A DNA stretch of 44,169 nucleotides from the NCBI GenBank assembly GCA_029247845.1, contig JAQWKM010000173.1:1-44169 (forward strand). Reading direction: 5' to 3'. Below are positions 11,765-28,865 of the stretch, one piece after another (position 1 is the first letter of the stretch; every line of letters starts with the position of its first letter). A program made the translations under genes and the position numbers. The notes under the pieces are model-generated. The model ran no database searches, had not been told where the DNA came from, and was given only the letters and a program-made list of their open reading frames with translations. Source of the DNA: Paracoccaceae bacterium (GTDB lineage Bacteria > Pseudomonadota > Alphaproteobacteria > Rhodobacterales > Rhodobacteraceae).

Positions 11765-13102
11765 TTATGTATCAAAAACTTTGGTAACATGTGAAAATTC
11801 ATCCATAATCATAAGATTTTTGTAAACCTCCTCACTCTCCTGATCGCTCCAGCATCTGGTAGTTAAGCTCATGTATTTATCTTTTAATTGCGCACTATCG
11901 TATGGATCCTGCCAATCACCGCGGTTAGTCTCGACTTCTGCCCGAAAGCTGGAACCATTTTTCATGGTAATGTTAACCAAGGCAGGCCTCAAGTCAGGCA
12001 ACTTAGCTGACATATGGCTGTTTTCTTTCACCGTAGTTTTGGCTGCTAACGCCAATATCGCTGGATTACTCAGGGCAGAGCCTGTAAAGCTTAGGACCTT
12101 TGACGAACGGTTGACCAAAGTAGTGGCAATTGCAAAAGGAATAGAAAACCGGGCTGCAAGTGCGTTGTGTGGCTTTTGGTCATCTAGTTCCGCCGCAAGA
12201 AAATAGCTCTCTACAAGAATGCAGGAAATTTCTTCGGGATATCGAAGTTCTGAGTGTCGATCAATCAACATCCAAACAGCATCTAAGGCAGCGTGGTTAT
12301 AGCGACAACATGCATGTAATTTGAAATAATTCCGGCTAACTTCAAATCGCTCTCCTATCTTATCTAAAGCGGCATCAACGTCGAAACAGGATGAAACGAC
12401 TCCTCCAAATACAGAGCGCAATCCATCTTTTTCACCACTAAAACCTGCGATCAGCAATCCATATGCTATGTGAGCCATTTGATTAGCGACCCCGGTATAC
12501 GCATTTCGAACCGTTCCACCTTCAACCATAGTTTTTCTGCTTGTCGCCAATGTTAGGCTCGATGCTATATTTATCAGTTCTGATAATTGTACTTCATCCA
12601 GCTGGTTAAGTGACCCTAGCGATGCAGCAGCGCCAACTACACCCCATGTCCCGTGAGGATGCATGTTAGGGTGAAGTGAAGTGGAAAGACCAACCCTAGC
12701 AGCGATGTCGTAACCTATGATGAATGATTTTAAAAAATCTTTTCCTGAAACTGGGTGAAGAGCATTTTCTGAAGCAGCAAGCAATGCTGGTAGGACATGC
12801 ATGCCCGGATGCCCACGGGCGAATTGATGCCCCTCATCCATCTCTAATACTGTACCAGCAGTTCCATTTATCAAGCTTGCCGTCTGCGGGTCAGTTACCT
12901 TTGAGTTACCCAGTATTCGCGATTTTCCAGGAGAATTTATAGAATCCACAAATGCTAACATCTCGGGTTCAGCACTGCCCCCAATTATGGCACCAATGCA
13001 ATCTGCAATGATTAACTTTGCCCTAAATATTATTTCGCTGGGAATGTGATCAAAGTTAGTTTGTCGAATAAACGCTGAAAAAACGTTGAGGTGTTCAGTC
13101 AT
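11765..13102 (-). CDS. MmgE/PrpD family protein
   Basis: GTAGTVLEMDEGHQFARGHPGMHVLPALLA, HPHGTWGVVGAAASLG, KLHACCRYNHAALDAVW motifs of the MmgE/PrpD family. Confidence 0.92.
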   Translation of the reverse strand: MTEHLNVFSAFIRQTNFDHIPSEIIFRAKLIIADCIGAIIGGSAEPEMLAFVDSINSPGKSRILGNSKVTDPQTASLINGTAGTVLEMDEGHQFARGHPGMHVLPALLAASENALHPVSGKDFLKSFIIGYDIAARVGLSTSLHPNMHPHGTWGVVGAAASLGSLNQLDEVQLSELINIASSLTLATSRKTMVEGGTVRNAYTGVANQMAHIAYGLLIAGFSGEKDGLRSVFGGVVSSCFDVDAALDKIGERFEVSRNYFKLHACCRYNHAALDAVWMLIDRHSELRYPEEISCILVESYFLAAELDDQKPHNALAARFSIPFAIATTLVNRSSKVLSFTGSALSNPAILALAAKTTVKENSHMSAKLPDLRPALVNITMKNGSSFRAEVETNRGDWQDPYDSAQLKDKYMSLTTRCWSDQESEEVYKNLMIMDEFSHVTKVFDT

Positions 13103-13237
13103 CAGAGCAACCCAGATATTGAAATTAATAGATTCGCGCTATCGTCCTTGTTATTCTTTGGACATAAGAAATCTTTTACAGTTCTATATAGTCGTAAGAA
13201 TGTACAAATACATAAAAAAAATCAACGGGAGTTTAAA

Positions 13238-14467
13238 ATGAAAAAGATAAACGAGCTACTTTCTGGCTCACGGCGTCGGTTTATGGGACAAGCTTCGGCT
13301 TCATTTGCTTTAGCATCAACAGGGTTAGCAGTTCCACATATTGCACAGGCAGCAAGTGCAGTAAAAATTGGTTTAATTCATCCAGCAACTGGCTGGGCGG
13401 CTTTCCCAGCAGCACAACTGCGCTACGGTGCACAAATGGCTATTGCAGACATCAATGCAGCGGGTGGTATTAAGTCCATGGGCGGTGCGCCTGTAGAAGC
13501 TATTCTTGGGGATTCTCAAACAAAGCCTGAAATTGGCGCCGCTGAAGTTGAGAAAATGAATGAGGCCGGTGTCGATGCTATCCAAGGCTGTTACCAGTCT
13601 GCAGTTGGCCTCGCGGCTTCAGCGGCTGCAGCTAAATACAACATTCCATTTTCAATCGATGTAGGCGTGTCAGATAAATTGGTTCAGCGCGGACTACCAA
13701 ACGTCTTTCGTATGGCTGACGGCTATGGGCGCATTGCAGCCGATGCTTCTGTTAATCTTGCAGAGATAAACAAGGCGGCAGGGTCTCCTGCGAAAACGGT
13801 TGCCATCGTGCATGAAGAGTCAGAATTTGGTACAGGAACGGCCAAGATGGTCACCAAAGCCCTTGCCAGCCATGGCTTGGACGTCATCGAAACGATCAAA
13901 CACGCCAATCCAACACGTAACTTTGACAATATCGCCCTTCGGCTTAAAGCGGCAAAACCTGATATAATCATGCCAATTAACTACCCAGGCGAATATGTTT
14001 TGCTAGCGAAAACTTTGCGCCAACAGCGTGTTGACTTTATGGCTAGCTATTCTGTTCTTGGCGGTGGCTTTAACTTTAAGTTTGTTGAAGAAATGCCTCA
14101 AATTGCCGAGAACATGATCGATGTAAACCACTGGTATAACCCGAGCTCAAGTTCTGGTCAGGCAATGCGCAAGCGTACGGAGGCAGATGGCAAATACTTC
14201 ACGTTTGAAGTATATTGTGCATATATGTCTGTCATGTTCCTTGCAGATGGGTTTGAGCGAGCAGGCACAACCGATAAAGAGGCAGTCAACGCTGCACTTT
14301 CAAGCTCAACACTTGAAGTTGATTTCATGCCATATGGACCAACTAAGATGTTGAATGGCCAAAATATGGGTTCACGCGCTGTGGCTATTCAAGCGCAGAA
14401 AGGAGATGTACAGATCATTGCACCATCTTCTTATGCATCTGCAAATGCTATATTCCCTCGGAGCTAA
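13238..14467 (+). CDS. LIV-type ABC transporter substrate-binding protein with Tat-like signal
   Basis: SRRRFMGQASASFALASTGLAVPHIAQA signal; periplasmic binding fold KIGLIHPATGWAAFPAAQLRYGAQMAIADINAAGGI. The supplied ORF start 13091 is upstream; ATG 13238 follows a GGGAG RBS. Confidence 0.92.
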   Translation: MKKINELLSGSRRRFMGQASASFALASTGLAVPHIAQAASAVKIGLIHPATGWAAFPAAQLRYGAQMAIADINAAGGIKSMGGAPVEAILGDSQTKPEIGAAEVEKMNEAGVDAIQGCYQSAVGLAASAAAAKYNIPFSIDVGVSDKLVQRGLPNVFRMADGYGRIAADASVNLAEINKAAGSPAKTVAIVHEESEFGTGTAKMVTKALASHGLDVIETIKHANPTRNFDNIALRLKAAKPDIIMPINYPGEYVLLAKTLRQQRVDFMASYSVLGGGFNFKFVEEMPQIAENMIDVNHWYNPSSSSGQAMRKRTEADGKYFTFEVYCAYMSVMFLADGFERAGTTDKEAVNAALSSSTLEVDFMPYGPTKMLNGQNMGSRAVAIQAQKGDVQIIAPSSYASANAIFPRS

Positions 14468-14483
14468 TATAATACAAACACGG

Positions 14484-14522
14484 ATTTCGTCAGTTTCAAA
14501 TGTTATCTAAAGCTGACGAAAT
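14484..14522 (+). other. Intergenic stem-loop between substrate-binding protein and livH
   Basis: Perfect 10-bp stem ATTTCGTCAG (14484-14493) / CTGACGAAAT (14513-14522), 19-nt loop. Confidence 0.65.
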
Positions 14523-14553
14523 TTCTTATTTCATTATTTAGAAGAGTCAGAAA

Positions 14554-15432
14554 ATGCTCTCAATAACGCTATCCTTGCTTCCAGCAGGTATTATAAACGG
14601 GCTCATGTTTGGGGCTATTTATGCTCTGGTTGCGCTTGGTCTAACATTAATCTACGGCGTGCTACATATTATTAACTTTGCCCATGGAGCTATGCTAATG
14701 CTGGCTCTTTATTCTGCATACTTTCTGTTCAAAGTCTTAAACATCGATCCATACGTCTCAATTCTCATTGTCACTCCGGCAAGCTATGTTTTTGGTTATA
14801 CGATATATCGTTGGGGTATAGGCAAGTTATCAGGTGGCCGCGATCAAAATATTCTACTAATTACTTTAGGGCTGTCGATTATCTTGGAGAATTCAGCGCT
14901 CTTCTTCTTTACCGGAGACCAACAAACTATAAGTCTGCCGTACAGTTACGAATCCTTTGATCTTGGTTTTCTATACCTTTCGTACCCCAAATTGATCTCA
15001 TTCGTAGCTTCTCTGATAATATGTGTCTTGCTATGGATGTTGATGACACTAACTGATCTGGGCAAAGCAATTCGAGCTGTTGCAAAAGAACGCGAGGGCG
15101 CTCGACTAGTTGGGATTGACGTTGAGCATGTCTTTGCTGTGACCTTTGGGATCGGTGTTGCTTGTTTGGGTGCGGCCGGCTGCATGTTGTTGCCAATTTT
15201 TTATGTTGATCCGTACACGGGCAATATCTTTGTCATTATCGCGTTCACGATTGTTGTACTGGGCGGCATGGGTAGCATTGTTGGCGCTTTATTGGGTGGT
15301 TTTATTATCGGGGTTACAGAATCAGTTGGAGGATTACTCTTAGGCGAAAGTCTCGGTCAAATTGGCATTTCCCTGATCTTTATCCTCATTCTAATCTTTA
15401 AACCGACTGGCATTTTTGGAAGCAAAGTATGA
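14554..15432 (+). CDS. livH: branched-chain-type ABC transporter permease (LivH-like)
   Basis: GIINGLMFGAIYALVALGLTLIYGVLHIINFAHGA; ends overlapping the next permease. Confidence 0.92.
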   Translation: MLSITLSLLPAGIINGLMFGAIYALVALGLTLIYGVLHIINFAHGAMLMLALYSAYFLFKVLNIDPYVSILIVTPASYVFGYTIYRWGIGKLSGGRDQNILLITLGLSIILENSALFFFTGDQQTISLPYSYESFDLGFLYLSYPKLISFVASLIICVLLWMLMTLTDLGKAIRAVAKEREGARLVGIDVEHVFAVTFGIGVACLGAAGCMLLPIFYVDPYTGNIFVIIAFTIVVLGGMGSIVGALLGGFIIGVTESVGGLLLGESLGQIGISLIFILILIFKPTGIFGSKV

Positions 15433-16397
15433 AATTGCCCTTTCGATCAAATATTTTCATAGCGCTTGGTTTGCTCACAGCAATGCTTGCACCGTTCGGT
15501 ATCTCGAGCAAGTTTCAGCTTGATGTACTGACCTTGATCTTCTTTACTGCCTACCTTGGTCAATCTTGGAATATTCTGGGTGGTTACGCTGGGCAGTTTT
15601 CTTTTGGTGGCGTGATGTTCTTTGGGACAGGTGCATACACTTCCTCAATATTATTGAGTAGTTTTGGGTTACCCCCGATCATAGGAATTTTTGCCGCCAT
15701 CTTCATGGGGGCACTGCTTGGATTAGTCGTAGGCTATCTTAGCTTTCGCTCAGGTTTACGGGGATCTTACTTTGCCCTTATCACACTTGCTTTTGCAGAA
15801 TTATTGCGCGTATTGGCCAATTCGGTTGAGTTTACGGGCGGCGGTGTAGGTTTATTTTTAACCTACGCGCCTGGATTGTATAATCTGCAGTTTACTTCCC
15901 CGACTGGGTTCTATTACTTCTCGCTCATTCTATTGGTGATCTCACTTGCTATAGCAATATGGCTTGAGCGCTCTCGTTTTGGAGCACAGCTGGTTGCGAT
16001 CCGAGAAAACGAAGATGCGGCAGAGGCCCTTGGCGTCGATACACTAAAATGCAAAATCTATGCAATTATGATAATGGGAGGTATGGGCGGTGCAGCAGGC
16101 ACATTTTATGCCCAGAAGTACCTTTATATTGATCCACCAATTTCATATTCGATAGCGCTTTCTGTTGAAATGCTTTTGGTCACGATTGTTGGTGGCATGG
16201 GCACAGTTTTTGGACCGCTTATTGGCTCATTTGTTCTTCATACTGTGAATGAGATTGCCCGCCACTTTATCAGCACCCCTGGACTAAGCCTGATCGTTTA
16301 CGGCTTTATTCTTATTGTGATCATCTCCTACCTACCAAATGGGCTCGTTGGGCTATTCCGCAAGACCCGAAAGAACAAGGAAAACGACGATGCTTGA
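15429..16397 (+). CDS. livM: branched-chain-type ABC transporter permease (LivM-like)
   Basis: QSWNILGGYAGQFSFGGVMFFGTGAYTSS, AIRENEDAAEALGVDTLKCK, GGMGTVFGPLIGS. Confidence 0.92.
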   Translation: MKLPFRSNIFIALGLLTAMLAPFGISSKFQLDVLTLIFFTAYLGQSWNILGGYAGQFSFGGVMFFGTGAYTSSILLSSFGLPPIIGIFAAIFMGALLGLVVGYLSFRSGLRGSYFALITLAFAELLRVLANSVEFTGGGVGLFLTYAPGLYNLQFTSPTGFYYFSLILLVISLAIAIWLERSRFGAQLVAIRENEDAAEALGVDTLKCKIYAIMIMGGMGGAAGTFYAQKYLYIDPPISYSIALSVEMLLVTIVGGMGTVFGPLIGSFVLHTVNEIARHFISTPGLSLIVYGFILIVIISYLPNGLVGLFRKTRKNKENDDA

Positions 16398-17130
16398 GGT
16401 TAAAAGCGTTACAAAACGCTTTGGCGGGCTGGTTGCGGTATCAGATGTTGATCTTGATGTTGCGAAAGGTGAGATTGTCTCGCTCATCGGACCAAATGGT
16501 GCAGGAAAGACAACATTATTTGCGAGTATTGCTGGGTTTCTAAAGCCCGATGAGGGTGAAGTCATTCTAAATGGCAAATCAATAACCAATTTGAAGCCGC
16601 ATAAAATTTGTAGGCAAGGTATGGTGAGAACGTTCCAGATCACCCAGCCTTTTGCGACTTTGAATACACTTGAGAACATCATGGTCGGTGCTTACGCAAA
16701 CACGAGTAACAAATCTCTCGCAAAATCGAACGCTGAACGCGTTGCTGAAATTGTTGGCATGACCTCTCTTCTGTATCAAACAGCGGATGGATTAACGGTA
16801 GCTGCGCGAAAACGCCTTGAGCTAGCGCGCGCCTTAGCAACCAATCCTCAACTACTGCTGCTAGACGAAGTAATGGCAGGGCTAAACCCAACCGAAATTG
16901 ACGAGATCGTAGACGTCATTCAAGGTATTCGTAACACCGGTGTGACGATTTTTTTGATCGAACATGTGATGAAGGCCGTGGTCAACCTTTCCGATCGAAC
17001 CTATGTTTTGAACGACGGTAAATTGATTGCGCATGGCACGCCCAATTCTATCGCCTCTGATCCTGCCGTTATCGAAGCATACCTCGGGCATGGCGCTGCT
17101 GAAGCTATGGCGCGTGGAGGCAAAGCATGA
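16390..17130 (+). CDS. livG: ABC transporter ATP-binding protein (LivG-like)
   Basis: GPNGAGKTTLFASIAGFLKPDEGEV, KSITNLKPHKICRQGMVRTFQ, LLLLDEVMAGLNPTE. ATG at 16390 preferred over ORF start 16339. Confidence 0.92.
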   Translation: MLEVKSVTKRFGGLVAVSDVDLDVAKGEIVSLIGPNGAGKTTLFASIAGFLKPDEGEVILNGKSITNLKPHKICRQGMVRTFQITQPFATLNTLENIMVGAYANTSNKSLAKSNAERVAEIVGMTSLLYQTADGLTVAARKRLELARALATNPQLLLLDEVMAGLNPTEIDEIVDVIQGIRNTGVTIFLIEHVMKAVVNLSDRTYVLNDGKLIAHGTPNSIASDPAVIEAYLGHGAAEAMARGGKA

Positions 17131-17828
17131 TTAAGATCAATGCATTATACGCTGGCTATGACTTGGTTAATGTCTTGCGGGATGTAAATATTGAAATTAG
17201 TGAAAGAGAAATTGTGGCTGTATTAGGCAGCAACGGAGTTGGAAAAACAACGCTAAACAATACCCTATCCGGTTTGATTAAACCAACCTCGGGTGAAATC
17301 TATTTTGAGGATGTACTCATTTCGGGCCGTGATCCAGTAGAGATTGTCGATATGGGTCTGATACATGTTCCAGAGGGACGAAAGCTTTTCCCAAATTTAT
17401 CCGTCAAGGAAAACCTTGAGCTGGGCAGCTATCGCCGTGGCAAACCTAATCGCAGCAAAAATCTTGAACGCATTTTGGAAATTTTTCCTAAGCTTAGAGA
17501 CCGTATCAGCCAAACGGCTGGAACACTTTCGGGCGGAGAGCAACAAATGGTTGCTATTGGTCGCGGTCTGATGAGCGAGCCACGTATTCTTTTGCTGGAT
17601 GAACCTTCACTCGGACTTTCGCCATTACTTGTGGAGCAAATGTTTAATTTGATTAAACAGATCAATGAAGGCGGTTTATCCGTCATTCTAGTTGAACAGA
17701 ATGTTATACAATCTCTATCAATCGCAGACCGGGCTTATGTTATTTCAGAAGGCACTGTGAGCCTCTCTGGATGCGCCAATGAGTTGCGTGAAAATAGCGA
17801 TTTGAAAAAATCATATCTTGGCTTGTGA
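17127..17828 (+). CDS. livF: ABC transporter ATP-binding protein (LivF-like)
   Basis: GSNGVGKTTLNNTLSGLIKPTSGEI, VPEGRKLFPNLSVKENLELG, LSGGEQQMVAIGRGL. Confidence 0.92.
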   Translation: MIKINALYAGYDLVNVLRDVNIEISEREIVAVLGSNGVGKTTLNNTLSGLIKPTSGEIYFEDVLISGRDPVEIVDMGLIHVPEGRKLFPNLSVKENLELGSYRRGKPNRSKNLERILEIFPKLRDRISQTAGTLSGGEQQMVAIGRGLMSEPRILLLDEPSLGLSPLLVEQMFNLIKQINEGGLSVILVEQNVIQSLSIADRAYVISEGTVSLSGCANELRENSDLKKSYLGL

Positions 17829-18593
17829 TTATTGGGCAGTAAAGCCACCATCGGCAACGACGACCTGTCCAGTAACAAAAGACGACGCCTCGGAGAGTAA
17901 GAAAACAGCGAGGTTTGCGATCTCTTCGGCTGTGCCAAACCGTCCAAGAGGAATGTCCTTTCGTAATGCGTCTGACCTGTCTTTATTTGCCCGAGTTTCA
18001 GCCGTCATATCAGTTGCGACTGGCCCAGGGGCAATCGCATTTACCCGAATATTTTCGCTTGCAAGTTCAAGTGCCATAGATCTTGCCAATCCATTAATGG
18101 CTGATTTAGATGCTGCATAAGCGGCCGCGTTGCGATGCCCAACCAATCCAATCTGACTAGAAATCATGATAATAGAACCAGATGTGCCTTGTCGCAAATA
18201 AGGTACCGAATACCGAGCAAGGTTAAAACTAGCGTTCAAATTGACGTCAAGAATACGGTCCCAATCATTGGGTTTAGTGTCTTCGCTGGTAAGCAGTTTT
18301 ATGATACCGGCTGAGGCAACAACCCCATTAAGACCACCGCAAATAGACGTCGCTTTATCAACCGCAGCCTGCAAAGCAGCGCTATCTGTAACATCCAGTT
18401 TAAAACGTCGCTCACTAGGGATGACGCCCTCCAAATTGCCGATCTGATCATCACTAAAAATAGTACCAGACACCATTGCTCCAAGGCTATGGGCAAGACG
18501 CGCCGTTGCAAGCCCGATCCCTGTTCCAGCACCGCTTATAAAGAGGCTTCTATTGACAAGTGTGATCATTGATGGCGTCCTTATACTAACCAA
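17829..18593 (-). CDS. SDR family NAD(P)-dependent oxidoreductase
   Basis: LFISGAGTGIGLATARLA, GVVASAGI, IIMISSQ...AAYAASKSAINGLARSMALELA, C-terminal SSFVTGQVVVADGGFTAQ. Likely start 18569. Confidence 0.93.
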   Translation of the reverse strand: MVSIRTPSMITLVNRSLFISGAGTGIGLATARLAHSLGAMVSGTIFSDDQIGNLEGVIPSERRFKLDVTDSAALQAAVDKATSICGGLNGVVASAGIIKLLTSEDTKPNDWDRILDVNLNASFNLARYSVPYLRQGTSGSIIMISSQIGLVGHRNAAAYAASKSAINGLARSMALELASENIRVNAIAPGPVATDMTAETRANKDRSDALRKDIPLGRFGTAEEIANLAVFLLSEASSFVTGQVVVADGGFTAQ

Positions 18594-18626
18594 GATTTAT
18601 CAATGTTTACATAGGCGCTTAAAGAT

Positions 18627-19391
18627 ATGAAGCAAATTTTAGTGATCGTCCCCTTCCCTATGTCAGATGAAAATCTGGATATGCGCAAACAGCAGCTTAA
18701 CTCTGTTCAGCTTCCTGATGACATGGAATTCACCTTCCGTCCTGTAAAAGCTGGGCCAAAAAACTATGTCTCCGAAGCGGATATGGTCCTTGCCGATGTA
18801 ACTATTCTAGAAGCGGGTTTGACCGCAGAAGTGGAAGGATTTGATGCTGTCTGTGTCGATACGATGAGCGATTCAGGTGTCGCCGCTTTACGTTCAACCC
18901 TCTCCATTCCTGTAGTTGGGCCGGGTCGTGCATCGATGCTGACGGCTATGATGCTTGGTCAGCGGTTTTCAATCGTCACGATGTGGCGCAAATGGTTTCA
19001 TCTTTATGAGAAGACGGTAAAAGATCTTGGCCTGCAGGCACACTTAGCATCTGTGCGGTCAATTGATGTTGCTCCCGACAACCAAGCCCTGCTTGGCGGA
19101 AAGGAAAATGATATTTTTCCTTTGTTAGAAAAGTCAGCGCGCCAAGCTGTAGATGAAGACGGTGCAGATGTTATTCTTTTGGGCTCAACCACGATGCATC
19201 AGGCCCATGCCTATCTTTCCAGCGTTCTGGAAGTGCCAGTGATCAATCCTGGCCCACTGACGTATAAAATGGTTGAATCACTTCTTGGCTTAGGGCTTAG
19301 CCATAGCAGTGTGGCCTATCCAAAGTCGCCAGTACCACGCGATATGATGCTGCATGCAATGCTAAAGACTGCTGGGGATTTTGACCATTAA
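18627..19391 (+). CDS. Asp/Glu/hydantoin racemase superfamily-like protein (catalytic Cys positions substituted)
   Basis: Fold motifs DAVCVDTMSDSGVAALRSTLSIPVVGPGRASM and ADVILLGSTTMHQAHAYL, where canonical members have CxxDPG-like and GCAGM motifs. Confidence 0.8.
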   Translation: MKQILVIVPFPMSDENLDMRKQQLNSVQLPDDMEFTFRPVKAGPKNYVSEADMVLADVTILEAGLTAEVEGFDAVCVDTMSDSGVAALRSTLSIPVVGPGRASMLTAMMLGQRFSIVTMWRKWFHLYEKTVKDLGLQAHLASVRSIDVAPDNQALLGGKENDIFPLLEKSARQAVDEDGADVILLGSTTMHQAHAYLSSVLEVPVINPGPLTYKMVESLLGLGLSHSSVAYPKSPVPRDMMLHAMLKTAGDFDH

Positions 19392-19780
19392 GACCGATTG
19401 GCATGGTCCAGTGTATTCTCGCCAGACATATAAACCCGAACTTCACTAAATTTATTGCCTTTGACGGTGAAGAAATTGCAGTTTGATTTATGAACGAGTT
19501 GATCATCAGGCAGTTGGTTCGTTACCTTGAAACGGACCGCTATTGTGTCGTTTTGGGTGTCTTCAACAAAGGAGAACTGATCATGGCGCACCCATTTATG
19601 ATTTGACCAAAGACGGTGGAACATTCCGCTGATCGCATCATGACCAATTAATTTTATGCCATGTGTTTCAATAGAAAACACACACTCCTCAGAAAGCGTC
19701 CCAAGCAATAATGGCAAATCTTCGTCGTCAACGCCGCAAAAATACGCTATGACCATTGATTTAAGTTTAGTCTCTCTCAA
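19388..19780 (-). CDS. nuclear transport factor 2/SnoaL-like protein
   Basis: YFCGVDDEDLPLLLGTLSEECVFSIETHGIKLIGHDAISGMFHRLW, NTF2-like pattern. Confidence 0.75.
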   Translation of the reverse strand: MRETKLKSMVIAYFCGVDDEDLPLLLGTLSEECVFSIETHGIKLIGHDAISGMFHRLWSNHKWVRHDQFSFVEDTQNDTIAVRFKVTNQLPDDQLVHKSNCNFFTVKGNKFSEVRVYMSGENTLDHANRS

Positions 19781-20342
19781 TTTTTAATACCTCTGCTTGC
19801 GCTAGGTCATTCCAAACCTCTTGATGGGTTATCTTACCATTGCTTATGCCAAACCGATCAATAAAACGAATGTTTTCAAAATGCCTTCCGTCCAGCCAAA
19901 TGCCATGCAATGTTCCATAACAATAAACCGATGCATCTTGACCTTTAAATGCAGTCTCAATGCGTTCAAACGTTTTCGAAACGGATTGATAACGAGTTCT
20001 CGTCCACGCCACTAGATCAGACAAATCTGTAAAACATTGCCCATCTGGAAATATCATCTGTGCCCCGTCGGCAAGCCACTTCTGTGCATCATCAAGCCTT
20101 CGATCCTGCATCGAGATGAGGAACTTTTTTACAATCTCATCAGGCTGTAATGGAGCAGGAGCAGGCGTTTTTTGGCTTCGGCCTCGCATGTAATTTTCCG
20201 GTGCCACTTCTTTTATTGTCACAATCACAAATTCGGGTGATGCACCAATCGCAGAACATGCCGCATCAGTAAGACGTTCTGATACCAAACGGCGTGTATC
20301 TGCATCGTATCCTTCGATTAACGTGCATTCAATTAACGGCAT
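19767..20342 (-). CDS. tautomerase (4-OT-like) / SnoaL-like domain fusion protein
   Basis: Reading from Met at 20342 gives MPLIECTLIEGYDADTRRLVSERLTDAACSAIGASPEFVIVTIKEVAPENY (Pro-1 4-OT fold), then Pro-rich linker TPAPAPLQP and NTF2-like domain. The supplied ORF extends 12 aa upstream, which would bury Pro-1. Confidence 0.8.
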   Translation of the reverse strand: MPLIECTLIEGYDADTRRLVSERLTDAACSAIGASPEFVIVTIKEVAPENYMRGRSQKTPAPAPLQPDEIVKKFLISMQDRRLDDAQKWLADGAQMIFPDGQCFTDLSDLVAWTRTRYQSVSKTFERIETAFKGQDASVYCYGTLHGIWLDGRHFENIRFIDRFGISNGKITHQEVWNDLAQAEVLKIERD

Positions 20343-20463
20343 TCTTCTCCTCCTCAAGTTTGAGACAACATCGTTCAAATATTATCAAATTACACTAATA
20401 TCTGAGACTCATTAAGGCAAAAATATTTATAGTATTGCTGACTTTATATGATACGCTTTGCTC

Positions 20464-21732
20464 ATGATTACACTGGCAAAAAAGCTACTTTCAGATGCTT
20501 CTGGAAAAGCAAACCTCGACATCGGGGATATTATTATTTGCAATGTCGACCTTGCCATGATTCATGACTCTGGCGGTCCACGAAGAGTAAAGCCTATTCT
20601 GGAACGTTTGAACCGTAATGTGTGGAATAAGGAGAAAATTGTTGTTGTCACCGACCATTACGTTCCTGTTGAAAGCGATGAAGCGCACGCGATTCAAGCT
20701 CTAACAAAAAAATGGGTAAAAGATAACGAAATTGACAATTTTTATGATGAACAAGGTATTTGTCACGTTGTATTGCCTGAACGCGGTCATCTGACCCCAG
20801 GCCTTTTTTGCGTTGGTGGAGACAGTCACTCACCCACTGGTGGGGCCTTTGGTGCCTATATGTTTGGCATTGGCGCCACTGAAATGGCTGGGGTACTGGC
20901 CACAGGATCCATTTGGATCAAAACGCCAGAAACCATCTTAATGTCATGGCAAAATCAATTGCGCAAATACGTCACTGCAAAAGACATGATGCTGGCGATG
21001 TGCCGAAAAATTGGGATGGGGGGTGGCCGGTATCAGGCCATCCAATTCGCGGGTGAAACTATCCGAAAATTGCCCATGCAAGAACGCATGACTTTATCAA
21101 ACATGGCCGCTGAACTTGGTGCGCAGGCAGGTCTTATCGCCCCTGATGAGACAACGATTGCCTATGTTGAAGCCGCTGGTGGACAGGTGCCGAATAACTG
21201 GCGCGACTTTCAAATTGAAACAGCCGAAGACACAAACAACATCATGCAGTTTGACGCGGCAAATCTATCGCCACAAATTGCAGCGCCCCATTCACCTGAA
21301 AACGCAAATGACGCGGACGAATTTCAAAACACTGCCTTTGATGTTGCTTATATTGGTGCATGCACAGGGGCAAAGTATATCGACCTTCTCGCTGCTGCTG
21401 ATGTATTAAAAGGCAGGCGTATCGCTAAGGGTGTTACATTGAAAGTTGCACCGGCTAGCTTGCGCGACCAACATCGCGCGGCAGAAGATGGCATTATGCA
21501 GATCCTTGAAGATGCTGGTGCTGAATTCTTGGCAAATTCATGTGGCATTTGTGCAGGCTATGGCGAAGACCGTCTTGCCGAGGGGCAAGTTTGTATTTCA
21601 TCTACTGCCCGTAATTTCAAAGGCAGAATGGGGGCGCAGAGTTCGTCAGTTTATTTGGCTTCGCCATATACTGTCGCGGCATCTGCGGTCACAGGAATGC
21701 TTACCGACCCTAGACTGGTCATGGGGGAGTAA
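20464..21732 (+). CDS. aconitase/LeuC-family hydratase, large subunit (candidate substituted-maleate hydratase)
   Basis: VTDHYVPV, HLTPGLFCVGGDSHSPTGGAFGAYMFGIGATEMAGVLATG, candidate Fe-S ligands in GACTGAK and NSCGICAGYG. Confidence 0.88.
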   Translation: MITLAKKLLSDASGKANLDIGDIIICNVDLAMIHDSGGPRRVKPILERLNRNVWNKEKIVVVTDHYVPVESDEAHAIQALTKKWVKDNEIDNFYDEQGICHVVLPERGHLTPGLFCVGGDSHSPTGGAFGAYMFGIGATEMAGVLATGSIWIKTPETILMSWQNQLRKYVTAKDMMLAMCRKIGMGGGRYQAIQFAGETIRKLPMQERMTLSNMAAELGAQAGLIAPDETTIAYVEAAGGQVPNNWRDFQIETAEDTNNIMQFDAANLSPQIAAPHSPENANDADEFQNTAFDVAYIGACTGAKYIDLLAAADVLKGRRIAKGVTLKVAPASLRDQHRAAEDGIMQILEDAGAEFLANSCGICAGYGEDRLAEGQVCISSTARNFKGRMGAQSSSVYLASPYTVAASAVTGMLTDPRLVMGE

Positions 21733-21735
21733 CGC

Positions 21736-22242
21736 ATGCCACGACTATGGAGGTTTGAAGGTACTATCGACACCGACGTTCTTGCCCCAGGGTTTTATAT
21801 GAAATCCCCATTGCCTAAGCTTTCAAACCATTGCCTAGAGGCTGTTCGGCCCGATTTCGCTCGTACCGTAGAAAAGGGCGACGTTTTTTTAGCCAATGCC
21901 AATATGGGGGTTGGTTCATCACGAGAACAAGCCGCTGAAGTCTTGAAATATTTAGGCATATCAGCCGTCATCGCACCAAGCTTTGCAGGTATTTTCTATC
22001 GGAACGCAATCAACCTCGGTTTGCCAGTTTTTACCATTGATCAGACACTCATGAGTATGCCCGCCTTAGTAGACGGTGCTAACGTAGAGTTTCATTTTGA
22101 CGTCGCAGAATTGAAAATTCTGGATGATGCAACCTGCATTAAACTGATCCCACTCCCCAATTTTCTCAAGGAGTTGATTTTAGATGGAGGATTAGTTCCA
22201 CACCTTGAGAAACGCTTTCAACAGGAAGGATCGTCTTCATGA
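21736..22242 (+). CDS. aconitase/LeuD-family hydratase, small subunit
   Basis: WRFEGTIDTDVLAPGFYM, LANANMGVGSSREQAAEVLKYLGISAVIAPSFAGIFYRNAINLGLPV. Confidence 0.9.
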   Translation: MPRLWRFEGTIDTDVLAPGFYMKSPLPKLSNHCLEAVRPDFARTVEKGDVFLANANMGVGSSREQAAEVLKYLGISAVIAPSFAGIFYRNAINLGLPVFTIDQTLMSMPALVDGANVEFHFDVAELKILDDATCIKLIPLPNFLKELILDGGLVPHLEKRFQQEGSSS

Positions 22243-23108
22243 GCTTACGTGATTTACTATCCGAAGATGACTTGCTGGTGGCACCAGGTATTTATGATTC
22301 TCTATCTGGCCTAATTGCAACTCAGTCCGGGGCAAAAGCGGTCTACTTATCTGGTGCAAGTATTGCCTATACAAGATTTGGGCGGTCAGACATCGGGTTG
22401 GTCAGCGTTTCCGAAGTTAATGACACCATCGCAGCCATAACTGACCGCATTTGCACGCCCATCATTGTTGATGGAGATAATGGGTTCGGGAATGCTCTCA
22501 ATGTCCAGCGTACCGTTCGAAGCTTTGAGCGATCGGGCGCGAATGCAATCCAACTTGAAGATCAATCTTTTCCAAAGAAATGCGGCCATCTAGATGGTAA
22601 AAAACTGATAAGCAAAAATGAAATGGTAGGCAAAATTCATGCTGCCCTAGACGCTCGGACTAACCAAAGCACACTGATCATTGCACGCACAGATGCCCGT
22701 GCCGTAGAGGGGTTTTCTCAGGCTATCGATCGGGCGCGAGCCTATAAAGAGGCCGGTGCAGATGTACTTTTTATAGAAGCGCCGCGATCAATGGATGAAA
22801 TGCGCAAAATTTGCGCTGAATTTTCACATGAAATCCCATTACTGGCCAATATGGTTGAAGGCGGAAAGACCCCTAGCGCATCAGCCAAAGACTTAGATAA
22901 TTTAGGATATAAAATCGTGATCTTCCCTGGCGGTGCAGTACGAGCGATCTCTCATCATATGCAAGGGTATTACAGCGGGTTACTGACAAATGGAAATAAC
23001 GATAAATTTTCAGGTAAAATGCATGATTTTAGTGGCTTAAATGATCTCATTGGCACCAAAGATTTGATTGAGCTCGGCGCTAAATATGAAGATAAAGGAA
23101 ACAAATAG
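22239..23108 (+). CDS. isocitrate lyase/PEP mutase superfamily lyase
   Basis: APGIYDSLSGLIATQSGAKAVYLSGAS, PIIVDGDNGFG, IQLEDQSFPKKCGHLDGK (KCGH motif), RTDARAVEGFSQAIDRARAY. Confidence 0.92.
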   Translation: MSLRDLLSEDDLLVAPGIYDSLSGLIATQSGAKAVYLSGASIAYTRFGRSDIGLVSVSEVNDTIAAITDRICTPIIVDGDNGFGNALNVQRTVRSFERSGANAIQLEDQSFPKKCGHLDGKKLISKNEMVGKIHAALDARTNQSTLIIARTDARAVEGFSQAIDRARAYKEAGADVLFIEAPRSMDEMRKICAEFSHEIPLLANMVEGGKTPSASAKDLDNLGYKIVIFPGGAVRAISHHMQGYYSGLLTNGNNDKFSGKMHDFSGLNDLIGTKDLIELGAKYEDKGNK

Positions 23109-23115
23109 TAATATC

Positions 23116-24789
23116 ATGAGCAAGATTAAAATGGACCCCGTGACCCTTGCGATATTGAAGGGTAGACTTGAACAAATCGCAGATGAAATGGATGCAACAC
23201 TCTTCCGTTCTGCCTTTAATCCGATTATCGCCGAAGCCCACGATGCCAGCCATGGAATTTATGATGCCATGACTGGTGATACGCTTGTTCAGGGCAAATC
23301 AGGCTTGCCAATTTTTGTTGGTGTGATGGCGTTTGCTGTAAAAGCGGTAATTGATAAAGTTGCGCGTGATGGCAGCCTCCAAGATGGGGATGTCTTCATT
23401 TTCAATGACCCATATGAAGGTGGCACACATTTATCTGATTTTAGATTGGTCAAGCCGATATATAGGAGTCATGAGGTATTTTGCTACCTTGCCTCAGTCG
23501 GTCACTGGCATGACGTTGGCGGAAATGTGCCAGGCAATTATAATCCTGAAGCAACTGAAAGTTTTCAAGAAGGGATGTTAATCCCACCAGTTAAACTTTT
23601 CTCGGCGGGTATTCTAAATAATGATATTGTTGATATATTATCCTCAAATTCACGTTTACCAAACTCGCTCTATGGCGACCTAAATGGGCAGATCAATGCC
23701 CTTGACCTAGGGCACCAGCGGCTTGATGACCTTCTCGATCATTATGGCGAAGAGAATATCAGAACTGCCCTCAACCTCTTGAAAGTTCGGGCTGAGAAAA
23801 TGATGCGTGACCATTTGTCGGAATTGCCAGATGGAACGATTTCCGTTGAAGATTTTCTTGATAATGACGGAGTTAACGACAAGGAGCTTAAGCTAGCTGT
23901 CGACATGACAATTCGCGACCAAACGCTTATTTTTGATTTCAGTCGATCCAGCCCTGCCTGCGCAGGACCTGTAAATATTTCGAGATCAACGACTATCGCA
24001 GCAACCTATGTCGCACTTAAGCATATTTTTACCGATGTGCCGGCAAATGCCGGGGTCTTACAGCCAGTCGAATTCATCATTCCCGAAGAGAGCTTTTTAA
24101 GCGTCAAAGCTCCAAAACCTGTGGGCGGATATACTGAAACTATCCTGCGTTTAATCGATGTCTTGTTTCAAGCCTTTGAAAATATTGCGCCTGAACGGGT
24201 AAATGGCTGTGCTTATGGAACGATTAATGCACTTTCTATTGCCGGTCACCGCAAAAATGGCAGTCGTTGGGTCATGTTTTCATTCTTTGGCGGTGGTCAT
24301 GGAGGTCACCCAGAAGGCGACGGCCTCAACCACGGCAATGCCCCGATTTCAACGGCGACAATCCCTCCACTAGAAATCCTAGAAGCGGCCTATCCTGTTG
24401 CCTTTACCCAATGGGCGCTAAGGCCTGACTCTGGCGGCTTAGGCAAACATCGTGGTGGTCTGGGCGCAATTTATGAAATTGAACTTTTAGAAGAGAGTGC
24501 AACCGCGTTTCTATTCGGTGAACGCGGCAAATTCGCGCCAGTAGGGGTCGTGGGCGGTGAAGCCGGAGCAATGAACAGATTTTATTATGACAGTGATGAT
24601 GAGGATGCCGTAGACAAAAAGAAATCGCCTGCACTCGTATCAAAAATGACAGGTATAAAACTATTGAAAGGTCAAAGGGTTCGACTTGAAACCCCTGGAG
24701 GCGGCGGTTACGGCAATGCCAAAAACCGACCTCAAAAGCTTATAGATAATGATATAGACCAAGGCTATGTGTCGGGGAAACGTACATGA
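23116..24789 (+). CDS. hyuB: hydantoinase B/oxoprolinase family protein
   Basis: DPVTLAILKGRLEQIADEMDATLFRSAFNPIIAEAHDASHGIYD, NDPYEGGTHLSDF, LETPGGGGYGNA. ATG 23116 preferred over ORF start 23068. Confidence 0.93.
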   Translation: MSKIKMDPVTLAILKGRLEQIADEMDATLFRSAFNPIIAEAHDASHGIYDAMTGDTLVQGKSGLPIFVGVMAFAVKAVIDKVARDGSLQDGDVFIFNDPYEGGTHLSDFRLVKPIYRSHEVFCYLASVGHWHDVGGNVPGNYNPEATESFQEGMLIPPVKLFSAGILNNDIVDILSSNSRLPNSLYGDLNGQINALDLGHQRLDDLLDHYGEENIRTALNLLKVRAEKMMRDHLSELPDGTISVEDFLDNDGVNDKELKLAVDMTIRDQTLIFDFSRSSPACAGPVNISRSTTIAATYVALKHIFTDVPANAGVLQPVEFIIPEESFLSVKAPKPVGGYTETILRLIDVLFQAFENIAPERVNGCAYGTINALSIAGHRKNGSRWVMFSFFGGGHGGHPEGDGLNHGNAPISTATIPPLEILEAAYPVAFTQWALRPDSGGLGKHRGGLGAIYEIELLEESATAFLFGERGKFAPVGVVGGEAGAMNRFYYDSDDEDAVDKKKSPALVSKMTGIKLLKGQRVRLETPGGGGYGNAKNRPQKLIDNDIDQGYVSGKRT

Positions 24790-26840
24790 AGAAATCAATC
24801 GTAATTGGCGTTGATGTTGGTGGTACCTTTACTGACATAGTCTCCCTTGATGAAGAGGCCGGTGAAGTTCGTGTTGAAAAAGTTCCATCCACAAAAGGGG
24901 ACCAATCCAGTGGTTTCTTAAGTGGTATTATGGCAGCAACCAACAATGATCTAAATTCGGTCTCAACCATCATCCATGGTACAACCGTGGCAACCAACGC
25001 TCTGCTTGAACGCAAAGGGGCAAAGGCAGGAATTATTACGACCCAGGGGTTTCGTGACGTTCTGGAAATGCGTCGCCGCGACCGCCCAACCACTTGGGGA
25101 TTATGGGGACAATTTAAACCCGTCATTGACCGACAATGTCGCCTTGAAGTTCCAGAGCGAACATTGGCTGATGGCACCGTTGTAACGAATATTGACGCAG
25201 CGTCTATCAAAGTGGCTGCCAAGGATTTGATAGGCCAAGGCTGTTTGTCTGTTTGCCTATTTTTTATCAATGGCTATGCCAATAAAGAAAATGAATCAAA
25301 AGCTGCAAAAATTTTACGCCAAGTTTGGCCAAATGAATATGTCAGCGTTGCGACCGAAATATTGCCTGAAATTAGAGAATTTGAACGCTGTTCCACCGCT
25401 AGCCTGAACGCTTATCTTCAGCCAGTAGTAGCCAAATATCTAACCCGGCTTGAGACCAAAATTGCGAAAGAAAACGCAGACTCTGAAATCCTAATTGTAC
25501 AATCTAACGGCGGTATTATGTCGGTTAGTACTGCAAAATCGTTACCGGTGCGTACAGCTCTTTCCGGCCCTGCTGCCGGCGTGGTGGCGGCACGACAAAT
25601 TGCAAAAGCTGCTGGATTTGATAATGTCATCACCGGCGATATGGGTGGTACCTCCTTTGATGTATCCCTCGTGGCAGATGGTCAAAATATGCTTACTGCT
25701 CAGGCCAGTATTGATTTCGGCATGGTCATCAGAACGCCCATGATTGAAATGTCTACAATTGGGGCGGGAGGGGGCTCGATCGCTCATATCGATGAAACTG
25801 GGCTACTTGAAATTGGCCCTGACAGTGCCGGGTCAGATCCTGGGCCTGTTTGCTATGGCCTTGGCAATGACCGCCCTACGGTAACGGACGCCAATTTGGT
25901 TTTAGGACGTATTGATGCCCGTAAACCTATAGGTAATAAGTTGACGACGCTCGACCGAAACGCAGCGGCCGCAGCAATCAAAATATATATTGCTGACCCA
26001 CTTTATATGAGTATTGAAGATGCTGCTGAAGCCATCATAAGAGTAGCGAATTCCAAGATGGCTGGTGCAATCCGCCTTATTTCTATCGAGCGTGGGCATG
26101 ACCCCAAACTATTCGCAGCGATGCCGTTTGGCGGCGGAGGTGCACTTCATGCAGGGGCGCTAATCCAAGACATCGGTTTAGCAGCGGCCATTGTGCCCCG
26201 ATACCCAGGCGTCACCTCCGCACTCGGCTGTGTCATGTCCGACTTACGACATGATGAAGTGCGAACTTTGAACATCATGCTAGAAGCACTTGATGAAGTT
26301 CATTTAAACGAACTAATCGCTGAGATAGCAAGCTCAGCTCAGGAGATTGTTCAGCAATCAAACGCAAAACTGGATAGTATCGAACGCATTATTGAGCTTG
26401 ATATGCTGTATGCCGGTCAGACACATGCCGTAGCAGTACCAATCATAAGCGATCAAGCTATTACAATTGACACGATCCAAAATGCTTTTGAGGAAAGCTA
26501 CCTCAAAGCTTACAGCCGGCTTCTAAATGAAATCCCCATTCGCATCCTGAACCTCAAGCTGTCTATCATCGGGAAACGGCCCCAAATCGACGTCAAAATG
26601 TTGGCCCGCGGTCCTCGCGCTGAAAGCGTCGAGACCTGTCGCGTGACAGGACAAGAGATATTTTCCAATGGCCAATGGCATGACGCAGCCATTTATGACC
26701 GGCTGTTATTACCTCAAGGTAGTAACATATCGGGGCCAGCATTACTGGTTCAGCCAGACGCAACAATCTATATTGATCCAGGGCTCTATGCTGTGGTTGA
26801 TGATTTTGGAAATATCATCATGAAAGAAGAGGACGCATAA
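24786..26840 (+). CDS. hyuA: hydantoinase/oxoprolinase family protein (HyuA-like)
   Basis: IGVDVGGTFTDIVSLDE, IIHGTTVATNALLERKGAKAGIITTQGFRDVLEMRRRDRP, GDMGGTSFDVSLV, STIGAGGGSIA. Confidence 0.94.
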   Translation: MKKSIVIGVDVGGTFTDIVSLDEEAGEVRVEKVPSTKGDQSSGFLSGIMAATNNDLNSVSTIIHGTTVATNALLERKGAKAGIITTQGFRDVLEMRRRDRPTTWGLWGQFKPVIDRQCRLEVPERTLADGTVVTNIDAASIKVAAKDLIGQGCLSVCLFFINGYANKENESKAAKILRQVWPNEYVSVATEILPEIREFERCSTASLNAYLQPVVAKYLTRLETKIAKENADSEILIVQSNGGIMSVSTAKSLPVRTALSGPAAGVVAARQIAKAAGFDNVITGDMGGTSFDVSLVADGQNMLTAQASIDFGMVIRTPMIEMSTIGAGGGSIAHIDETGLLEIGPDSAGSDPGPVCYGLGNDRPTVTDANLVLGRIDARKPIGNKLTTLDRNAAAAAIKIYIADPLYMSIEDAAEAIIRVANSKMAGAIRLISIERGHDPKLFAAMPFGGGGALHAGALIQDIGLAAAIVPRYPGVTSALGCVMSDLRHDEVRTLNIMLEALDEVHLNELIAEIASSAQEIVQQSNAKLDSIERIIELDMLYAGQTHAVAVPIISDQAITIDTIQNAFEESYLKAYSRLLNEIPIRILNLKLSIIGKRPQIDVKMLARGPRAESVETCRVTGQEIFSNGQWHDAAIYDRLLLPQGSNISGPALLVQPDATIYIDPGLYAVVDDFGNIIMKEEDA

Positions 26841-27455
26841 ATGTCTGAACAGCCTTTTGAACCTTCAACAACTGCCATCCTGATTGTTGACCTACAAAAT
26901 GACTTCTTACATGCTAAAGGCGCTTATGGCAGATCTGGAACGTCAAGCTCGGATATTGCTAAGCTGCCTTCAAAAGTTACGCCCCTTCTTGATGTGGTGC
27001 GCGAGGCAGGTGGCTGGATTATCTCAACACAATTCACTCTTGTGCCAGGTAAGAAGGGCGAACCATTTATCTCGGAGCATTTAAAGAAATTACGACCATT
27101 TTTGACCAACGGTGACTTCATGCCATCAGGTTGGGGCCATTCCCTTGTTGAGGAGCTTCAACCTGCTGATATCATCATTGAAAAGGTCGCCTATTCGGCT
27201 TTTTACCAATCGAGGCTCGATTTTGCAATAAACCGAGCGGGGATAAAGACCTTGATGGTATGCGGTATTGTTACCAATGGTGGCGTCGCATCAACCGTTC
27301 GTGACGCCCATGTTCGCGACATTCGCACTATAACTTTGGAAGATGGCTGTGCCGCCTTTTCCAAAAAAACCCATGATGTTTCTATAGCGTCACTCGCCAC
27401 TGTGGGTGAAGTGATGCCCATTGCTGATGCCATCAAGTTGTTTAGGGGAGGATAA
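26841..27455 (+). CDS. cysteine hydrolase (isochorismatase-like) family protein
   Basis: AILIVDLQNDFL, EKVAYSAFYQSRLD, LMVCGIVTNGGVASTVRDAHVRDI (catalytic D-K-C arrangement). Confidence 0.91.
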   Translation: MSEQPFEPSTTAILIVDLQNDFLHAKGAYGRSGTSSSDIAKLPSKVTPLLDVVREAGGWIISTQFTLVPGKKGEPFISEHLKKLRPFLTNGDFMPSGWGHSLVEELQPADIIIEKVAYSAFYQSRLDFAINRAGIKTLMVCGIVTNGGVASTVRDAHVRDIRTITLEDGCAAFSKKTHDVSIASLATVGEVMPIADAIKLFRGG

Positions 27456-27458
27456 ACT

Positions 27459-28865
27459 GTGCCAGGGGTCATTCGTTCTTCGGAATTTAAAGCTGATATT
27501 CAAGTTGATTGCTTGATAATTGGTGGTGGAGCGGCGGGACTGACAGCTGCTTTGGCAGCGTCAGAAACTGGCGCAACCGTCTTAGTTGCCGAACGTGAAA
27601 ACCGACTTTCCGGATCGACAGCATTGTCGTCTGGTCTAATTCCCGCAGCTGGCACTAAAGCTCAAGACAAACAATCTATTGCGGATAGTGAAGACATTTT
27701 TTTTGCTGATATTATGGCGAAAAACAAAAATACTGCTGATGTTGAATATGTAAAACAGATTGTAGGTCAAATTCCCAAAACCATAGATTGGCTTAGTGAT
27801 AAATACGGAATTGCGTTTCATGTGTTGGATAATTTTCTATATCCAGGGCATACAAACCATCGCATGCACACCGTACTCGAAAAAACTGGGGTTGGGCTGA
27901 TCCATCGCCTTGAGACAGCCGTCTTTGCACAAGACGTGATGGTTGCAACAGGTGTTCAAGTAAGCGAGCTTGTGGTCGATAGGACTGATAAAGCACTTGG
28001 AGCAATCTGTTTGCGCCCTGACGGTACCAATGAACGTATATCTGCCGCAGCCATCATTCTCGCCTGCAATGGCTATGGAGCCAATCCAGGTCTTATCGCA
28101 GAACATATCCCAGAAATGAAAGATGCACTTTATTTTGGTCATTCCGGCAATCAAGGTGAAGCGATATTATGGGGAAAAACTCTCGGTGCTGAGCTTTTAC
28201 ATCTCTCAGGTTACCAAGGCCATGGATCAGTTGCGCATCCGCATGGCATCTTAGTGACTTGGGCCCTGATGATGGAGGGTGGAATTCAGGTCAACGCTAA
28301 GGGTGAACGCTTTTCAAACGAACATAATGGCTATTCTGAGCAAGCGGTATCTGTGCTTGCGCAAGATGAAAAAATAGCCTTCAATATTTTTGACGAACGG
28401 TTGGCCGTTCTTGGCCGTGGATTTGATGATTTCAAAAAAGCAGAACAGAGTGGCGCGTTAATCAAAGCAGAAAGTAGTGAAAACCTAGCCAGAAAACTTG
28501 GCGTTGATCCTTCTACTTTTTACAAAACACTGGCTGAATGCGAGCAGTATGCTAGCGGGGATCAAGTCGATCCGTTTGGGCGAAATTTTGAGCCCAAAAA
28601 ACGGCTGGCCGCGCCTTACTATGCCGTAAAAGTCACAGGCGCTTTATTTCATACCCAAGGCGGATTGCGCGTGAATTGCGATGCGAAAATCTGCCGACCT
28701 AACGGAGTGCCTTTTGACAATATTTTTGCATGTGGAGGTGCTGCTTGTGGCGTATCTGGGCCAAATGTTTCAGGCTATTTGTCAGGAAATGGTTTACTGA
28801 CTGCCTTAAGCTTAGGAGAAATTACAGGGACCAAAGCAGGCAAAATGACATCTGAATCTTATTAA
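27459..28865 (+). CDS. FAD-dependent oxidoreductase (fumarate reductase/3-ketosteroid dehydrogenase-like flavoprotein)
   Basis: CLIIGGGAAGLTAALAASETGATVLVAER, LSGSTALSSGLIPAAGT, ILACNGYGANP, FHTQGGLRVN, GGAACGVSGPNVSGYLSGNGLLTALSLG. GTG start. Confidence 0.9.
   Translation: MPGVIRSSEFKADIQVDCLIIGGGAAGLTAALAASETGATVLVAERENRLSGSTALSSGLIPAAGTKAQDKQSIADSEDIFFADIMAKNKNTADVEYVKQIVGQIPKTIDWLSDKYGIAFHVLDNFLYPGHTNHRMHTVLEKTGVGLIHRLETAVFAQDVMVATGVQVSELVVDRTDKALGAICLRPDGTNERISAAAIILACNGYGANPGLIAEHIPEMKDALYFGHSGNQGEAILWGKTLGAELLHLSGYQGHGSVAHPHGILVTWALMMEGGIQVNAKGERFSNEHNGYSEQAVSVLAQDEKIAFNIFDERLAVLGRGFDDFKKAEQSGALIKAESSENLARKLGVDPSTFYKTLAECEQYASGDQVDPFGRNFEPKKRLAAPYYAVKVTGALFHTQGGLRVNCDAKICRPNGVPFDNIFACGGAACGVSGPNVSGYLSGNGLLTALSLGEITGTKAGKMTSESY

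Follow-up and report, generated by a model that had tools for sequence, protein, structure and literature searches.

In the nicotinate fermentation of Eubacterium barkeri, dimethylmaleate hydratase (DmdAB) is followed by 2,3-dimethylmalate lyase, and in the degradation of creatinine and N-methylhydantoin HyuAB works together with N-carbamoylsarcosine amidase. The 2-methylcitrate cycle employs PrpD, an aconitase and PrpB. In cyclic imide catabolism an imidase acts along with a half-amidase, as exemplified by HxnM and HxnN of Aspergillus (PMC9304392). Here, we describe an operon sharing elements with each of these systems. It is located in a stretch of 44,169 nucleotides, subsequently designated the window, from a Paracoccaceae bacterium (GenBank assembly GCA_029247845.1, contig JAQWKM010000173.1), whose draft genome comprises 2.6 Mb and is 75.7% complete. 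The operon encodes, in this order, a LeuC-like and a LeuD-like protein, a lyase of the isocitrate lyase/phosphoenolpyruvate mutase (ICL/PEPM) superfamily, HyuB, HyuA, an isochorismatase-fold protein and a FAD dehydrogenase. With moderate confidence, we read it as a catabolic operon for a small carboxylate-bearing cyclic amide, a cyclic imide or a related lactam being the most likely candidates. The parts belong to known families and the kind of system is heterocycle catabolism; the literature searched, which excluded most subscription journals, contained no account of the combination, no published pathway for the gene set and no homologous cluster with an assigned substrate.

From LeuC to the FAD dehydrogenase, the core genes are spaced by +3, −4, about +7, −4, 0 and +3 nt, the third value applying if HyuB starts with the ATG at 23116. 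The HyuB reading frame opens at 23068 and the conserved part of the protein begins at about 23116, seven bases 3' of the lyase stop codon. This position is the probable start, as are 13235 for the periplasmic binding protein (SBP) of the adjacent importer and 20342 for a tautomerase fusion. Every gene family named in the original prediction, which had been made from the sequence alone, has its open reading frame (ORF) at the coordinates given there, and Pfam and NCBIfam confirmed each family. Co-occurrence of the seven operon families in the same order, which the prediction had put forward as a check, was borne out in other genomes: among 62 named loci with at least 9 kb beyond the LeuC start, the full set of seven core genes is present in 52, 44 of them having identical order. 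In the remaining seven-gene loci, mostly, the lyase gene comes last or there is an additional lyase paralog upstream, and gene content is constant. With this recurrence, and core proteins ~40–80% identical between unrelated genera, the grouping is far beyond chance. The seven genes from LeuC to the FAD dehydrogenase are a tightly coupled operon.

Loci of relatives were annotated by tblastn and a trained gene caller. A scan of named genomes retained 80 loci from Alpha- and Betaproteobacteria. LeuC orthologs were detected in 10 of 199 genomes of a family sample (E ≤ 1e-60) and in 29 of 385 genomes of a class sample (E ≤ 1e-120), the window's own genome being included in both counts. Carriers of the seven-gene set are marine Rhodobacteraceae, SAR116-type metagenome-assembled genomes (MAGs), Roseibium, Stappia, rhizobia and Burkholderiales. 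A MAG assigned to Bordetella parapertussis (L114) and a chromosome assigned to Mesoflavibacter (L130) also carry the proteobacterial cluster; these assemblies are probably mislabelled.

The strongest evidence for a ring-opening step is that several unrelated kinds of cyclic-amide openers accompany LeuCD and the lyase. In the class sample, the window's own genome left out, LeuC-LeuD-ICL genes are accompanied by HyuAB in 12 of 28 genomes, by a displacing module instead in 7 and by both in none; 9 loci show neither module, several of them owing to a contig end. The displacing module comprises an isochorismatase-fold protein with a real cysteine (TSGCVRAT) and/or polysaccharide-deacetylase-type (PuuE-like) proteins. 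At locus L054, the order is GntR regulator, SBP, LivHMGF, LeuC, LeuD, lyase, Cys amidase, PuuE1, PuuE2 and FAD dehydrogenase; regulator, uptake system, FAD protein and lower pathway are as in the operon, and the exchange is confined to the ring-opening module. PuuE1 matches PuuE allantoinase with 110 bits, and the best matches of the Cys amidase are N-carbamoylsarcosine amidohydrolase (113 bits) and maleamate amidase (97 bits). HxnM and the cyclic imide hydrolase from Pseudomonas putida YZ-26 are members of the PuuE family (PMC9304392). As HyuAB is swapped for other cyclic-amide hydrolases, its likely role is to open the ring of a cyclic amide, imide or ureide. Protein sizes had suggested that the displacing module is the 5-oxoprolinase PxpABC, which was ruled out by its Pfam assignments. 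Molybdenum hydroxylases upstream of the operon at locus L053 were likewise ruled out; the genes encode FAD/GCV_T dehydrogenases, kinases and GATase and are probably a separate unit.

The residues of HyuAB also support the predicted ring opening. The Asp-His-Asp-His metal ligands of HyuB are invariant (EAHDA, GGTHxxD and HWHDVGG motifs in 78 of 78 sequences), and the ATP motifs GVDVGGTFTD and DMGGTSFDV of HyuA, equivalent to Asp11 and Asp295 of CapA, are kept in nearly all of 77 sequences. The ATP and metal residues required in the caprolactamase CapAB served as reference (PMC8453981). HyuAB has both subunits, the ATP motifs and the metal ligands in common with the ATP-dependent lactamases CapAB, 5-oxoprolinase and N-methylhydantoinase, the last being the best solved relative of HyuA (7hk5). 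In contrast to these enzymes, it has different operon partners and scores far below the cut-off of 1000 bits for the caprolactamase equivalogs NF050156/NF050157 (505.5 and 299.5 bits).

Intact catalytic residues argue for the predicted succession of a LeuCD-type hydratase and an ICL-type C-C lyase. The LeuC-like protein scores above the subfamily cut-offs of PRK00402 and hacA_fam and below that of the 3-isopropylmalate dehydratase equivalog TIGR00170 (252.5 vs. 560 bits). Its Fe-S cluster cysteines C302, C362 and C365 are invariant, as is characteristic of the two-subunit aconitase family. The catalytic cysteine of the lyase lies within PK(K/R)CGH, conserved in 96 sequences, and is accompanied by EGG, a motif shared with petal death protein; in the top hit, which is methylisocitrate-lyase-like, EFG takes its place. 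With the PrpB model TIGR02317 the lyase reaches 288.8 bits at a cut-off of 354, and its similarity to lyases of the 2,3-dimethylmalate/petal-death type amounts to 179 and 169 bits. Hence, it looks like a dialkylmalate lyase rather than a methylisocitrate lyase, as far as can be judged from its sequence.

As in E. barkeri, an aconitase-type hydratase would be followed by an ICL/PEPM-type lyase, and LeuD belongs to the LeuD/DmdB subfamily. However, this likeness is one of enzyme families: the operon lacks the B12 mutase, the enamidase and the other upstream genes, and its hydratase-lyase pair is tied to HyuAB, the isochorismatase-fold protein and the FAD enzyme, in Proteobacteria. Co-occurrence of an MmgE/PrpD protein, an aconitase-type hydratase and an ICL-type lyase in the island (positions 11,765–28,865) recalls the 2-methylcitrate cycle, but the lyase falls short of the PrpB cut-off and has EGG instead of EFG, the MmgE/PrpD gene is present in 9 of 62 loci, LeuCD has two subunits and no citrate-synthase-type enzyme is found among the island genes. 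Two further loci carry the LeuC-LeuD-lyase triad without HyuAB, in Caballeronia (L131, 7620–12600) together with a TauD-type dioxygenase and a CoA-transferase, and in Ralstonia (L136, 7628–13520) together with two TctC-type binding proteins and a GntR regulator. The lower module seems to be reused in these cases.

The original prediction had assigned hydrolysis of a half-amide to a cysteine hydrolase. In the HyuAB lineage this step fails, because all 75 isochorismatase-fold orthologs contain GIVTNGGV, in which the second glycine occupies the nucleophile position. In the window's protein, this residue (Gly148) aligns with Cys162 of the triuret hydrolase TrtA (C162S in 6xj4) and with the cysteine of 3kl2. 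Asp17 and Lys115 are invariant and the motif K-x-A-(Y/F)-S-A-F is retained. The predicted structure has a mean confidence (pLDDT) of 91.5, and its nearest folds are triuret/biuret hydrolase and RutB. Since a true Cys amidase comes with the displacing module, half-amide hydrolysis may still apply to the overall pathway, though not by the mechanism originally envisaged. Glycine in place of the cysteine is a known state of isochorismatases such as PhzD and EntB.

Fumarate reductases possess a catalytic arginine (R402-type) and a substrate-binding arginine near the C-terminus. At the position of the fumarate reductase TTR motif, the FAD protein has a conserved GYSE, i.e. an exchange of Arg for Tyr at the catalytic site, and by alignment the C-terminal substrate arginine (GYNRLGGNA in fumarate reductase) is absent. 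For both reasons, a different kind of C-C desaturase is more likely than a fumarate reductase. It reaches 240.5 bits with the flavocyto_c model, whose cut-off is 285.

From these data we infer the reactions, the order of the third and fourth steps and the substrate as follows. The LIV-type system would import the substrate and HyuAB would open the ring in an ATP-dependent manner. The ring nitrogen would be released, here by the isochorismatase-fold enzyme acting without a nucleophilic cysteine. Either before or after ring opening, the FAD dehydrogenase would set a C=C bond, giving rise to a (di)substituted maleate. Addition of water by the LeuCD-type hydratase would yield a substituted malate, from which the ICL/PEPM-type lyase would release a 2-oxoacid along with a short carboxylic acid. 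An imide or an alkyl-maleate is a plausible substrate, and opening of a cyclic imide is suggested by displacement of HyuAB by PuuE/imidase-type proteins. No deaminating enzyme (ammonia-lyase, aminotransferase) was seen in any version of the operon; therefore, the diacid must arise from the second and third steps and an imide is preferred over a hydantoin. Known cyclic imide catabolism likewise proceeds by opening of the imide ring and subsequent amide hydrolysis, and cyclic imide hydrolases are found in the PuuE-type family to which proteins of the displacing module belong. In contrast to the pathway proposed here, the known routes stop at a dicarboxylate such as hydroxyglutarate or succinate and involve neither LeuCD hydration nor C-C cleavage.

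Several points weigh against an imide pathway of this kind. The missing cysteine is its chief weakness, as an isochorismatase-fold enzyme without a nucleophile for ordinary amide hydrolysis leaves release of the nitrogen without explanation. Cyclic imides are usually opened without ATP, which is awkward with HyuAB. Some genomes carry LeuC-LeuD-ICL with neither ring-opening module nearby, and the lower part may therefore serve several routes. Finally, the operon has neighboring genes of the hydantoin type and, in one clade, for uric acid, which would suit a ureide better.

The most probable alternative is that HyuAB opens a hydantoin or dihydropyrimidine to an N-carbamoyl acid, which would be decarbamoylated by the isochorismatase-fold enzyme, deaminated and passed on to LeuCD and the lyase. 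We regard this as possible, albeit at rather low confidence. It agrees with N-methylhydantoinase as the nearest solved relative of HyuA, with the closeness of the displacing amidase to N-carbamoylsarcosine amidohydrolase and with the racemase-fold protein, which is most like hydantoin/allantoin racemases. Genes for a D-hydantoinase and an N-carbamoyl-D-amino-acid hydrolase adjoin the operon at loci L067, L119 and L120, as well as at L047 and L135, which belong to one Silicimonas-type genome of the window's family combining this pair with PuuE1/2-like genes and the HyuAB operon; at L068–L072, urate catabolism genes are adjacent. However, without an ammonia-lyase or aminotransferase the step from an amino acid to a maleate is missing, and both the racemase-fold protein and the isochorismatase-fold hydrolase lack the catalytic cysteine. 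The creatinine route resembles the operon in that HyuAB adjoins an isochorismatase-fold hydrolase, and the displacing amidase is N-carbamoylsarcosine-amidase-like, but the operon's own hydrolase has no cysteine, and LeuCD, the lyase and the FAD enzyme play no role in that route.

A third scheme, which we consider unlikely, starts from an unsaturated lactam. HyuAB would convert it to an enamine acid, and the Cys-less isochorismatase-fold enzyme would hydrolyze the enamine via protonation of the C=C bond; the lower steps would be akin to the dimethylmaleate-dimethylmalate end of nicotinate fermentation. True isochorismatases hydrolyze vinyl ethers by protonating a C=C bond, and retention of Asp17, Lys115 and K-x-A-(Y/F)-S-A-F alongside glycine at the cysteine position would fit such chemistry, as would the subfamily of LeuD and the use of ATP by HyuAB, which suits a stable lactam. 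On the other hand, the true Cys amidase of the displacing module argues for cutting of an amide or ureide rather than an enamine, the nearest folds are biuret/triuret hydrolases and not isochorismatases, and no B12 mutase or other nicotinate-fermentation gene is nearby. That HyuAB is a carboxylase of the acetone/acetophenone type instead of a ring opener is highly improbable: it belongs to the same superfamily and matches subunits of acetone and acetophenone carboxylases, but caprolactamase and N-methylhydantoinase match better, no additional carboxylase subunit is encoded in the operon and cyclic amidohydrolases displace HyuAB in relatives.

Within the preferred reading of the operon as a pathway for a cyclic imide or related lactam, a speculative extension, to which we attach little confidence, is that it represents the missing bacterial route for carboxylated maleimides (hematinic acid and related compounds) that arise when tetrapyrroles are broken down. 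The ring would be opened and ammonia lost, an alkyl-maleate would be hydrated and C-C cleavage would then lead to central metabolites, and the Cys-independent isochorismatase-fold enzyme would perform an unrecognised step.

Table 1. Features of the island and its 3' end (window coordinates).
Feature	Position	Strand	Assignment
MmgE/PrpD protein (accessory)	11765–13102	−	PF03972/PF19305
LIV-type periplasmic binding protein (SBP)	13235–14467	+	PF13458 (Peripla_BP_6), 8e-48; ORF opens at 13091
LivH	14554–15432	+	PF02653 (BPD_transp_2)
LivM	15429–16397	+	PF02653 (BPD_transp_2)
LivG	16339–17130	+	PF00005 (ABC_tran)
LivF	17127–17828	+	PF00005 (ABC_tran)
Short-chain dehydrogenase/reductase (SDR) oxidoreductase (accessory)	17829–18593	−	PF13561
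Asp/Glu-hydantoin racemase-fold protein without either catalytic Cys (accessory)	18627–19391	+	PF01177
SnoaL-like protein (accessory)	19388–19780	−	PF12680, 9e-05, under gathering score
4-oxalocrotonate tautomerase (4-OT)-type tautomerase fused to SnoaL-like domain (accessory)	19767–20342	−	PF01361; N-terminal Met-Pro
Core operon, LeuC to FAD dehydrogenase	20458–28865	+	Genes overlapping or few bases apart
LeuC/aconitase-type large subunit (hydro-lyase)	20458–21732	+	PF00330 (Aconitase), 1.4e-91
LeuD/DmdB-type small subunit	21736–22242	+	Aconitase_C; TIGR02087, 141.6 bits (cut-off 108.95)
ICL/PEPM-superfamily C-C lyase, dialkylmalate-lyase-like	22239–23108	+	PF13714 (PEP_mutase/ICL)
HyuB, metal subunit of ATP-dependent lactamase/hydantoinase	23116–24789	+	PF02538 (Hydantoinase_B), 9e-168
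HyuA, ATP subunit	24786–26840	+	PF05378/PF01968 (Hydantoinase_A)
Isochorismatase-fold hydrolase without catalytic Cys (Gly148)	26841–27455	+	PF00857
FAD_binding_2 dehydrogenase, flavocytochrome c-like	27459–28865	+	PF00890
Strong terminator-like hairpin 3' of FAD dehydrogenase gene	29230–29250	+	9 pairs, then T run; pattern match, hairpin scan overall without excess over shuffled sequence

The original view of import and catabolism as one unit is supported by conservation of the neighborhood (Table 1). The LIV importer adjoins the operon in about 36–39 of the 62 loci, and an SBP gene is near LeuC in 36. TRAP, TctC or NMT1-type transporters take the place of the LIV system at other loci, which fits a carboxylate or organic acid substrate. 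Among the accessory genes, the tautomerase-SnoaL fusion is present in 29 of 62 loci, and its catalytic Pro-1 (MP at the corrected start) is kept in most of 37 orthologs. The SDR gene recurs beside the operon in close relatives. A racemase-like activity of the racemase-fold protein appears unlikely in view of its residues, Thr and Ser replacing the two catalytic cysteines in 12 of 12 orthologs.

A GntR regulator is encoded at 59 of 97 loci, and a UTRA domain was confirmed in the paralog at locus L164. In several genomes, the palindrome ATGATATA-N4-TATATCAT is situated 5' of LeuC or of the GntR gene. Genome G199 has a second perfect copy at a GntR-TRAP-tautomerase locus (L162), G582 a copy with one mismatch at the L164 locus and G585 a copy with two mismatches just 5' of a racemase-fold and MFS gene pair (L163). 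Through these candidate operators the tautomerase fusion is linked to the pathway and so, more weakly (in one genome), is the racemase-fold protein. No close GntR ortholog was found in the window's own genome, where the operator search gave no convincing site above control. The separate L164 locus (2492–11566) encodes the GntR paralog, a TRAP transporter, a choline-dehydrogenase-like GMC oxidoreductase, a CMD-family protein, an SDR, the tautomerase fusion and an Amdase-family protein; it probably represents upstream steps of the same pathway.

The D-hydantoinase encoded at L067 (1584–6440), L047, L119, L120 and L135 scores 702 bits, above the cut-off, and its gene lies beside those for MmgE and the racemase-fold protein; the same region also encodes an AllB-like amidohydrolase and another paralog of the ICL/PEPM lyase. 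At L068–L072 (~1–9340), in one Rhodobacteraceae clade, an apparently full gene set from uric acid to glyoxylate, recognised by eye, adjoins the operon: xdh, hydroxyisourate (HIU) hydrolase, 2-oxo-4-hydroxy-4-carboxy-5-ureidoimidazoline (OHCU) decarboxylase, allantoinase, allantoicase and ureidoglycolate lyase. They appear to constitute a complete, separate pathway and were taken as neighbors, not as operon parts.

The closest named relatives of the window's genome are Paracoccaceae/Rhodobacteraceae single-cell genomes and MAGs, LeuC of L062 being 94% identical. The flanks of the window and L062 are identical in content, with ZnuB upstream and MipA and EamA downstream, which indicates a stable chromosomal position. 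With a GC content of 0.456, the cluster is close to its flanks (0.44 and 0.42), so that there is little to suggest a recent foreign origin. Beside the zinc ABC transporter genes, ~1.9 kb (6146–8063) contain frames of only 64–74 aa and no convincing ORF; a search of this segment for tRNAs and Rfam families gave no match.

Recurrence of the seven genes across such marine and soil taxa makes it probable that the substrate is a natural compound common to sea and soil. With PuuE/imidase-type enzymes taking the place of HyuAB, the chemistry is narrowed down to that of a cyclic amide, so that the substrate can be tested with a short panel of compounds. Moreover, the operon points to a putative isochorismatase-fold enzyme that would function without its cysteine, and it offers a likely function for many genes annotated as 'hydantoinase', 'isopropylmalate dehydratase' or 'carboxyphosphonoenolpyruvate mutase'.

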